Position numbers and translations under genes: made by a program. From positions 509,665 through 573,664 of the forward strand of contig NZ_KI912608.1 in the NCBI RefSeq assembly GCF_000519265.1: 64,000 nt of DNA. The letters are read 5' to 3'. Every line of letters begins with the position of its first letter. Positions within the stretch are counted from its first letter, which is position 1. The notes under the pieces are model-generated. The model was not told the DNA's origin. It ran no database searches and saw only the letters and a program-made list of their open reading frames with translations. This DNA comes from Desulfonatronum lacustre DSM 10312. GTDB taxonomy: Bacteria > Desulfobacterota > Desulfovibrionia > Desulfovibrionales > Desulfonatronaceae. Positions 2,338 through 4,435 of this stretch are shown here, piece by piece.

Positions 2338-2547
2338 ATGAGCCAGACGATCATCTACGGAAAGCAGGGCTGACCCTATACCACCAACGCCCGTGAGGCG
2401 AATCCCGGCCATGTTTATTATGACGTGAAGATGGATGCCGGCCGGATGGAAGAAATGCTGAAGCTCAGCCAGGGGCGGCGCAAGGTGCCCGTTATCGTGG
2501 CCGACGGAAAGGTGACCGTGGGCTTTGGGGGAACCTGAGGCGTCTAG
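2338..2547 (+). CDS. UXX-star family thioredoxin/glutaredoxin-like selenoprotein with two in-frame UGA (Sec) codons
   Basis: ATG 2338 follows an AGGAGG site at 2326-2331 and opens a 69-codon frame. It contains TGA at 2371-2373 (codon 12) and TGA at 2536-2538 (codon 67) and ends at TAG 2545-2547. Decoding UGA as selenocysteine gives IIYGKQGUPYT near the N-terminus (a UxxT redox motif in a glutaredoxin-like strand-helix), a central GRRKVPVIV cis-Pro segment, and a C-terminus GFGGTUGV. This matches what I know of the UXX-star (seleno)protein family, whose members carry Sec or Cys at the N-terminal site and in the GFGGT(U/C)GV tail. Hairpins follow each UGA at the same distance (separate entries). 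The role is probably thiol/selenol redox chemistry; the substrate is unknown. Ordinary gene finders would miss it because of the two stops. The selenocysteine insertion genes are not in this window. Confidence 0.85.
2388..2400 (+). promoter_or_regulatory. SECIS-like hairpin for first UGA
   Basis: CGCC (2388-2391) pairs with GGCG (2397-2400) around the loop CGTGA. Counting the U of UGA 2371 as 1, the loop starts at position 22. Bacterial SECIS elements place their apical loop about 20-25 nt after the UGA. The stem is short, so this rests on position as much as on pairing. Confidence 0.5.
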
Positions 2548-2549
2548 AC

Positions 2550-2567
2550 CTTCGGCGGTCGCCGAAG
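2550..2567 (+). promoter_or_regulatory. SECIS-like hairpin for second UGA
   Basis: A seven-base stem, CTTCGGC (2550-2556) with GCCGAAG (2561-2567), closes a GGTC loop. Counting from the U of UGA 2536, the GG of the loop is at 22-23. This is the same spacing and loop core (GGUC) as the E. coli fdhF SECIS as I remember it. It lies mostly beyond the TAG stop, so its sequence is not constrained by coding. Confidence 0.6.
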
Positions 2568-2632: not shown

Positions 2633-4435
2633 TTAATCCCTGCGTCTGAGCAACGCGGCGAAAATTATCCGGCTCAGCTCATGACAGCCTAGGTCTTTGA
2701 TTGGCCACCAATTCAGCTTTCCGGAGTTGGATCGGACGGCTTCGGCCTGGAATTGGAGTCCGGCGCGCAAGGCGTTCTGGCCCTGACGCAAAGTGACCAG
2801 TCGAAATGACAGAAGGATGTCGCCGTTGTTCTGCTTGCCCGAAGGCATGTGCAAGTGAAGCAGGCCGGAAGGAGAGTTCCCAGCGGAGTGTACCGCTTCG
2901 AGCTTTGCTCGAAAATTGTCCGTATTGACCGCGAGACACGCGCCACCCGCGGAAATGTCTTCCAGCCAGATTCTCGCGGAAGGTTCCGAGGTAATAGCCA
3001 CGGGCTCTCCTGGCTCGGAAAGTGCCGCCATGGATTTCGGAAGCTTATGGACTTCAAGGTGAATATTGACGGATTGTATCGATAACAGGTCAGCGGTCAT
3101 GCGAGGAAATTTTCGGTCTAGGGGAAAGAGATCGTCGATGGGTTCAATTACCAAGGCGGCGACGTTTTTCGATACTGGTTTGACGTGCCGGAGCCTGCAT
3201 GTACAGGCGTAGAAACGCAGATCTTGGAGCTTATGAGGGATGGAGAATCTGAGAATCAGAGCTTCTTCAGTGGCTGCCTCGCATCGGCCTTGCACCGATC
3301 CTTCCACAGTGAGAATCAGGTACTGATCCTTCAGTTCCTTCATCCGGCAAGTAAGCCCAGGGCGCGTGAGGCCTGATTCCGGTAAGAATTCCAGTGACAC
3401 TGGTGTGTTTTGTGGGATCCTTTCCAGAATCAGACGGCTGTGATATGTTTGCGGTTGGCCGCTTGTTTGATCTTCATTGGAAAGTAGGCCGGCACGAAGT
3501 CGATTTCGTCCGCTACGTTCTTTCTGGAGCAGGTGGGCTCGCAGTTTGCTCCGCCAATAGGTTAGGGCCAACGACTCTACGAAATCAGTCTGCATGAGCC
3601 TTTCGTGTCTATAGTGGCTGCCAGGGGATTTTGCAGTATTCCCCTTGATAAAAGCAGCTCGAAAGTATTCGACCTGTTCCTGAACGGAACCGTTTTTTAC
3701 TTTGGATAAATTATTTTGTGGGTTTGTCTTCCATAAATCACAAAAATAGTCATGCAAGGAAAAAAAGAGAGTGGCAGCACCGGAGACCACCATGACATGG
3801 GTATGAAGTGGGTCGGAGCATATTGCTTCCTGAAAGCGCAAAAAATTATCTGGGATTCTACTTGTTCTCTGTTTGGCTCGGAGCAGCTCAAGGCAAGCAT
3901 CGCGATGGGCGTTGCCCCCGAAGTTTTCCAGGCAAAAAGTTCCGGCCATGGCCAACCTGCGACGCAGAGGCATGGTCATGAAGTCGGAACGTCTTTGAAA
4001 AAACGGGTTGTCTTCCCTGAAGACGTATTCTTTTCCGGCAAGAAACCTGAAAAACGAATTCTCATTCAATACTGAACGCCGCTGGCCGAAAACTTGCCAG
4101 GTTTCGTCGGGGGGGGCCGCCTGAAGATGGTCGTAGTCAAGCCACAAGACCATGCTGTCCAGGATGTCGTGCCAGACTTCGGAGTGGTTGAGATAGGATT
4201 TCAGGGGTTCCTTGCAGCCGTCGCTTCGGAAGGTGTTCACCAGCCAGTCGGGCAGAGGCTTGAGGGTGGCGTGCCGGTCCGCTGGGCAGCCGGAAAGGAT
4301 CTGTTGCAGTAAACGTTCAAGGCTTTGAACGAAGTCGAGTCCGTCGGCACCTTTTCCGAGTCGCCACCCTCGATTTATGAGTTGATTGAGAAGGTTGCCC
4401 ACGAAATGTTCATGGGGGATGGTTGTGGAGATCAT
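2633..4435 (-). CDS. Large protein with C-terminal c-di-GMP-binding PilZ domain
   Basis: The protein is 600 residues. The first 300 or so are not recognised; they are rich in aromatic and basic residues with no obvious membrane segment. From about residue 335 a beta-rich stretch resembles the N-terminal half of YcgR/flagellar-brake proteins. A PilZ domain follows with RKFPR (RxxxR) near 443 and DISAGG (D/NxSxxG) near 491, the two motifs that bind cyclic di-GMP. It is therefore probably a c-di-GMP receptor whose N-terminal part is specific to this protein. The upstream half (about 3.5-4.8 kb) is visibly more AT-rich than its neighbours, so lateral acquisition is possible. It is convergent with the selenoprotein gene and divergent from prmA. 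PilZ call fairly sure; overall role unknown. Confidence 0.75.
   Translation of the reverse strand: MISTTIPHEHFVGNLLNQLINRGWRLGKGADGLDFVQSLERLLQQILSGCPADRHATLKPLPDWLVNTFRSDGCKEPLKSYLNHSEVWHDILDSMVLWLDYDHLQAAPPDETWQVFGQRRSVLNENSFFRFLAGKEYVFREDNPFFQRRSDFMTMPLRRRLAMAGTFCLENFGGNAHRDACLELLRAKQRTSRIPDNFLRFQEAICSDPLHTHVMVVSGAATLFFSLHDYFCDLWKTNPQNNLSKVKNGSVQEQVEYFRAAFIKGNTAKSPGSHYRHERLMQTDFVESLALTYWRSKLRAHLLQKERSGRNRLRAGLLSNEDQTSGQPQTYHSRLILERIPQNTPVSLEFLPESGLTRPGLTCRMKELKDQYLILTVEGSVQGRCEAATEEALILRFSIPHKLQDLRFYACTCRLRHVKPVSKNVAALVIEPIDDLFPLDRKFPRMTADLLSIQSVNIHLEVHKLPKSMAALSEPGEPVAITSEPSARIWLEDISAGGACLAVNTDNFRAKLEAVHSAGNSPSGLLHLHMPSGKQNNGDILLSFRLVTLRQGQNALRAGLQFQAEAVRSNSGKLNWWPIKDLGCHELSRIIFAALLRRRD

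Follow-up and report, generated by a model that had tools for sequence, protein, structure and literature searches.

Can a reading frame of only 69 codons, interrupted twice by UGA, encode a protein with two selenocysteines (Sec), and what might the two residues do in so small a molecule? The question is raised by a short gene near the beginning of the 64,000-nucleotide stretch of the Desulfonatronum lacustre genome that we analysed (hereafter the window). The gene occupies positions 2338–2547 of the forward strand, as supported by the NF041114 profile, the Pfam glutaredoxin model and its translation: the frame opens with ATG at 2338, closes with TAG at 2545–2547 and yields 69 residues with both UGAs read as Sec. 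A preliminary description of the locus had pointed to a good ribosome site and a single reading frame in which codons 12 and 67 are UGA, and these are indeed present on this strand, with the Shine–Dalgarno sequence AAGGAGG at 2325–2331 and the UGA codons at 2371–2373 and 2536–2538. A second in-frame ATG at 2332 immediately abuts the Shine–Dalgarno sequence, so the start at 2338 is the likelier one. The product carries a UPYT motif near its N-terminus, the Sec of which (codon 12) is placed by alignment to Sec- and Cys-containing members of its family, and ends in GGT-U-G-V followed by the stop, with codon 67 supplying the C-terminal Sec.

Downstream, a long G+C-rich hairpin (2578–2610) and a run of eight T (2611–2618) on the forward strand probably form an intrinsic terminator (2578–2618); the segment 2571–2622 folds at −22.1 kcal/mol, and a terminator-like site was called at the same place. 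The gene is free-standing: on one side lies a divergent gene for a trehalose-phosphate synthase/phosphatase and on the other a convergent ORF of 600 residues (2633–4435, reverse strand) with no Pfam match. A scan of the whole window for frames with an in-frame TGA returned 11 other candidates.

Profile searches bore out the proposed UXX-star identity, with NF041114 (UXX-star selenoprotein family 1) scoring 110.4 bits against a curated cut-off of 72 and aligning residues 5–69 with positions 2–70 of its 70. This family has one Sec in a UxxT motif and another as the third-last residue, which are the places of the in-frame UGAs 12 and 67. The Pfam glutaredoxin model PF00462 also recognizes the protein (36.8 bits; gathering score 22.9). 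Scores for UXX-star family 2 (39.1 bits, cut-off 100), UXX-star family 3 (43.3 bits, cut-off 97) and the HUGP/GUXX-star fusion NF045501 (48.2 bits, cut-off 325) stay below their cut-offs, and the C/U-x-x-C motif of classical dithiol glutaredoxins is absent, its place being taken by UPYT. In the portions available, a 2026 review (PMC13188914) enters 'Distant Grx-like protein 1 (UXX-star selenoprotein family 1)' under NF041114 with the motif UxxT and two Sec, and credits it to a 2008 study (PMC2398784). The available passages of that study enter Grx-like with UxxC and do not contain the name 'distant Grx-like protein 1'; those of PMC9312934 enter distant Grx-like protein 1 with UxxT. No experimental study of the family was among the literature matches listed. 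The gene in the window is a regular member of this already described family and no new kind of gene.

The Sec machinery that the preliminary description proposed to look for is all in place in the host genome (3.76 Mb, one contig, 99.69% complete): selA (611 bits), selB (365.7 bits), selD (333 bits) and a tRNA-Sec (82 bits), the last called by ARAGORN as tRNA-SeC with anticodon tca. A second match of the tRNA-Sec model in this genome is a tRNA-Trp. The host selD itself contains an in-frame TGA, so that SelD, too, is probably a selenoprotein. Across an order-level sample of 199 genomes, selB was present in all 49 genomes with an over-cut-off NF041114 match, and none of the 19 selB-less genomes had such a match (hypergeometric p = 0.003, ignoring kinship).

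We then read the two Sec sites in 150 over-cut-off places, 49 from the order sample and 104 from a phylum sample of 395 genomes, with three shared; 148 members were located by script and the two it missed (L035 and L174) were read by eye. At site 12, 113 members have Sec and 37 have Cys, and site 67 was Sec in all 150, with two ambiguous cases (L065 and L079) in which a Cys codon immediately precedes the UGA and a Cys end is possible. At site 67, the script accepted whichever TGA came first downstream of the cis-proline, so that a Cys with a TGA stop behind it could be misread in this way; on inspection, only these two stayed ambiguous. The expectation that relatives would hold Sec or Cys at both sites is thus right for site 12 and wrong for site 67, and no gene among the 150 lacked Sec or Cys at either. 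The stop follows exactly three codons past UGA 67 in 136 of the 150 (134 of 148 by script, two by eye), the other 14 having 3 to 23 residues after Sec67, and the two residues after this Sec are mostly Gly or His and then Val or Ile. Fifteen additional contig loci comprised seven Sec/Sec and eight Cys/Sec genes; because they were found by peptide patterns including DGKVTVGF, conservation measured with them is inflated, and at least two of them duplicate genes (L046 is L144, and L047 is L030).

Sec/Sec is the commonest state of the sampled family. Two Sec had been called rare for so short a protein, which does not hold within the family, for which the available text of PMC13188914 likewise gives two Sec; across all selenoprotein families, the same text assigns two to three Sec to a small subset only. 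The C-terminal Sec is never clearly replaced in the 150 sampled genes, and the N-terminal Sec has been repeatedly swapped with Cys. When both sites were masked and a tree was built from the 157 distinct proteins, site 12 required at least 15 changes, at least six of them forced by starred branches; this count is rough, as the tree is weakly supported and rests on 64 columns for its 157 rows.

We also fetched 28 relatives scoring below the cut-off, 14 of which were read by script and 14 of which did not match its pattern. Of those read, 12 have no C-terminal site, and one (L182, 63.8 bits) has Gly at site 12 while retaining the C-terminal UGA. In our judgement, these relatives (45–64 bits) belong to neighbouring glutaredoxin families. 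Four of them (L192, L204, L205 and L209) combine UPYC, in which Sec is joined by a resolving Cys, with the absence of a C-terminal Sec and form a contrast set to the combination of UPYT and C-terminal Sec. In a subgroup (L160, L162, L168–L173 and L180), the GF motif is separated from the GG/GR-T-U end by about 13 additional residues, and the protein terminates 2 to 23 residues past the C-terminal UGA. In L035, a UXX-star member on the minus strand, the Gly of the YGK motif coincides with one more in-frame TGA in addition to the two Sec sites, which may reflect an error of sequencing or the recoding of a third codon. One contig (G551:C16) carries two tandem UXX-star genes, L100 and L181, both Sec/Sec, with starts 425 bases apart.

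Bacterial SECIS elements are hairpins that follow the UGA at a fixed distance and bear a conserved G in the apical loop. Both UGAs of the gene are followed by predicted elements of this kind, which SelB may bind. Hairpin 1 (2388–2400, forward strand) lies within the coding region, overlapping Ala-Arg-Glu-Ala codons, and has a 4-bp stem (2388–2391/2397–2400) with the loop CGUGA (2392–2396). Hairpin 2 (2550–2567, forward strand) lies entirely 3′ of the stop codon, free of coding constraint, and has a 7-bp stem (2550–2556/2561–2567) with the loop GGUC (2557–2560) already seen in the preliminary description. Both loops begin at +22 when the U of UGA is counted as +1, the '+21 to +22' given there being the same place under another counting, and both contain G23-U24. 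An Rfam scan of 2200–2700 gave no match to a SECIS family; a miRNA match in this segment was far below threshold and sits on the terminator hairpin.

With only 4 bp, hairpin 1 is weak on its own, and longer folding windows give other folds; we accept it because the comparative data carry it, not the single-sequence fold. In the window gene, it folds at −5.6 kcal/mol, a stability reached by none of 15 synonymous recodings. Averaged across the 113 distinct Sec12 members, its stability is −7.85 kcal/mol versus −3.01 for synonymous recodings (Wilcoxon p = 2 × 10−18, ignoring kinship), with 100 of the 113 below their own recoding mean. The Cys12 members provide a natural control: the corresponding values for 44 distinct members are −3.82 and −2.34 kcal/mol (p = 0.17, ignoring kinship). 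Similarly, G at +23 is found in 106 of 113 Sec12 versus 21 of 44 Cys12 members (Fisher p = 6 × 10−10, ignoring kinship). Covariation was evaluated on 57 Sec12 sequences (53 distinct) out of the eventual 113, and gave 26 double-change cells versus 8.1 in shuffles that ignore kinship, none of 500 being as high. Among the 53 distinct rows, 87% of the cells pair, with the two outer pairs broken in 15 rows and 12 rows, respectively. Two pairs have changed on both sides, which is no more than shuffles give (403/500).

Hairpin 2 has a mean of −11.23 kcal/mol over 157 distinct members versus −3.06 for base shuffles, with 146 of the 157 below. Its covariation was studied in eight of nine close relatives, L047 being omitted as identical to L030. 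All 56 stem cells are paired, and three of the seven pairs have changed on both sides. There are six double-change cells versus 1.5 in shuffles (0/500 as high) and three double-change pairs versus 1.3 (18/500 as high), with shuffles that ignore kinship in both cases; the pairing is lost when the stem partner is slid, and further pair types are no more numerous than in shuffles (144/500). The combined evidence of covariation, synonymous recoding and the Cys control indicates that the predicted SECIS-like hairpins are real, and by the sequence comparisons hairpin 1 accompanies the UGA and is relaxed in members with Cys at site 12.

These results bear on two other ways of reading the UGAs. One is that either codon 67 or codon 12 is a plain stop, leaving a single decoded UGA, or that the gene has decayed; the weakness of hairpin 1 by itself fits such a reading, as does the next stop just three codons past UGA 67, and L065 and L079 might have a Cys end followed by a plain stop. 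However, the spacing of that stop and the character of the intervening residues are maintained among the relatives, hairpin 2 covaries and is more stable than its shuffles, and site 12 is UGA in some members and a Cys codon in others, with hairpin 1 retained only in the company of UGA, all of which makes this reading very improbable. The other, that UGA stands for a different amino acid, either genome-wide or via a suppressor, would equally leave the frame open, as would any such code, but UGA 12 aligns to Cys in 37 of the 150 members, the genome has the Sec machinery, and hairpins accompany the UGAs; we regard its chance as close to negligible. Under the favoured reading, decoding as Sec, the ribosome would insert Sec at both UGA 12 and UGA 67, each directed by its own downstream hairpin via SelB and tRNA-Sec.

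What kind of protein would result? In an AlphaFold2 model built from 16 sequences (pLDDT 91.7), strands and helices follow one another as in glutaredoxins. Its best structure matches are glutaredoxin-type chains, namely cGrx1 (7c10), BC3987 (3zij), NrdH and Grx3, with VIA-align Z scores up to 9.4 over residues 1–65; the best Foldseek E-value was 1.1 × 10−3, and that search gave no match under 10−3. The Sec67 tail falls outside the structure-aligned residues 1–65. Taken together, the frame, family, hairpins and machinery, along with this predicted fold, make it highly probable that the gene encodes a recoded two-Sec protein of the glutaredoxin fold. The position of the resolving Cys, three residues after site 12, is Thr in 144 and Cys in 13 of 163 members, and the region from the YGK motif to site 67 holds no Cys besides site 12 in 142 of the 163; L018 and L037 have a Cys two residues after Sec67, outside the stretch counted. 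Because Thr replaces the resolving Cys, Sec67 is the likeliest internal partner of Sec12 in most members. Evidence against Sec67 as the resolver comes from the 13 members that have both a resolving Cys and a C-terminal Sec, which such a model does not need.

We tentatively propose that Sec12 and Sec67 form a redox pair, an idea to which we give somewhat less than an even chance. The glutaredoxin core would be kept, with UPYT replacing CPYC and a short Sec67 tail where longer glutaredoxins go on; Sec12 would attack, and Sec67 on the C-terminal tail would resolve, giving an internal diselenide instead of the glutaredoxin disulfide. The protein would then cycle between diselenol and diselenide, or form a selenenylsulfide where site 12 is Cys. 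With the same reserve, and as part of this diselenide reading, the C-terminal Sec may be the indispensable member of a two-selenol pair and the N-terminal one exchangeable. The main rival is that the two selenols bind a soft metal or metalloid (e.g., mercury or arsenic), the protein acting as a chaperone or sink and not as a redox enzyme. The available text of PMC13188914 suggests that the Sec of UXX-star proteins may coordinate metals or interact with unknown substrates, and the lack of any clear Cys replacement of the C-terminal Sec in the sample agrees with this. The glutaredoxin profile match and the predicted fold count against metal binding, as does the failure to recognize, by eye, metal-resistance genes among the recurring neighbours; the cis-proline motif in 163 of 163 members adds little because the member-finding script required it. 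On balance, we hold metal binding to be unlikely, though still the main competitor of the Sec12–Sec67 redox pair.

The neighbourhood was surveyed by clustering the ORFs around 92 members (L016–L109), with flanks of a few hundred bases to 5 kb. The flanks are lineage-specific: trehalose-phosphate synthase/phosphatase in the genus of the window (by Pfam), pnp, rpsO and truB in one family, and mutY and ndk in a second, the genes of these two families having been named by eye alone. Around these 92 members, we saw no operon common to the lineages and no hint of a substrate. The gene is of interest as a small natural Sec pair with a built-in comparison, in that relatives vary between Sec and Cys at site 12 and hairpin 1 follows the codon. 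It lends itself to questions such as what maintains the last Sec and how 69 codons accommodate two recoding events. Neither the constancy of the C-terminal Sec nor the loss of constraint on hairpin 1 in Cys12 members was found in the available passages of PMC13188914, PMC2398784 and PMC9312934, and we make no claim of novelty for either.

Among known systems, the closest is NF041114 ('Distant Grx-like protein 1') itself, with which the protein has in common the score, two Sec, UxxT and the U-x-x-stop end; we saw no substantive difference, the window gene being a single copy in one genome. The clostridial cGrx1 and cGrx2 (PDB 7c10, 7c12 and 4tr0), which are among the top structure matches, have the glutaredoxin fold in common with it, and cGrx1 we take to be the selenoprotein glutaredoxin of the clostridial Grx work. 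A selenoprotein glutaredoxin from that work appears by title in the reference lists of PMC13188914 and PMC9312934, as far as these are available. The motif given for selenoprotein Grx in the accessible part of PMC13188914 is UxxC, whereas the window protein has UxxT and a C-terminal Sec. The C-terminal part of the HUGP/GUXX-star fusion NF045501 matches window residues 3–69, but the fusion has an N-terminal domain that the window protein is without. Mammalian thioredoxin reductase is a flavoenzyme that ends in Gly-Cys-Sec-Gly, and the encounter of its tail Sec with a redox centre near the N-terminus would, by analogy, be the same idea; that enzyme is unrelated, however, and its Sec is next to last, whereas the Sec of the window protein is third from the end.
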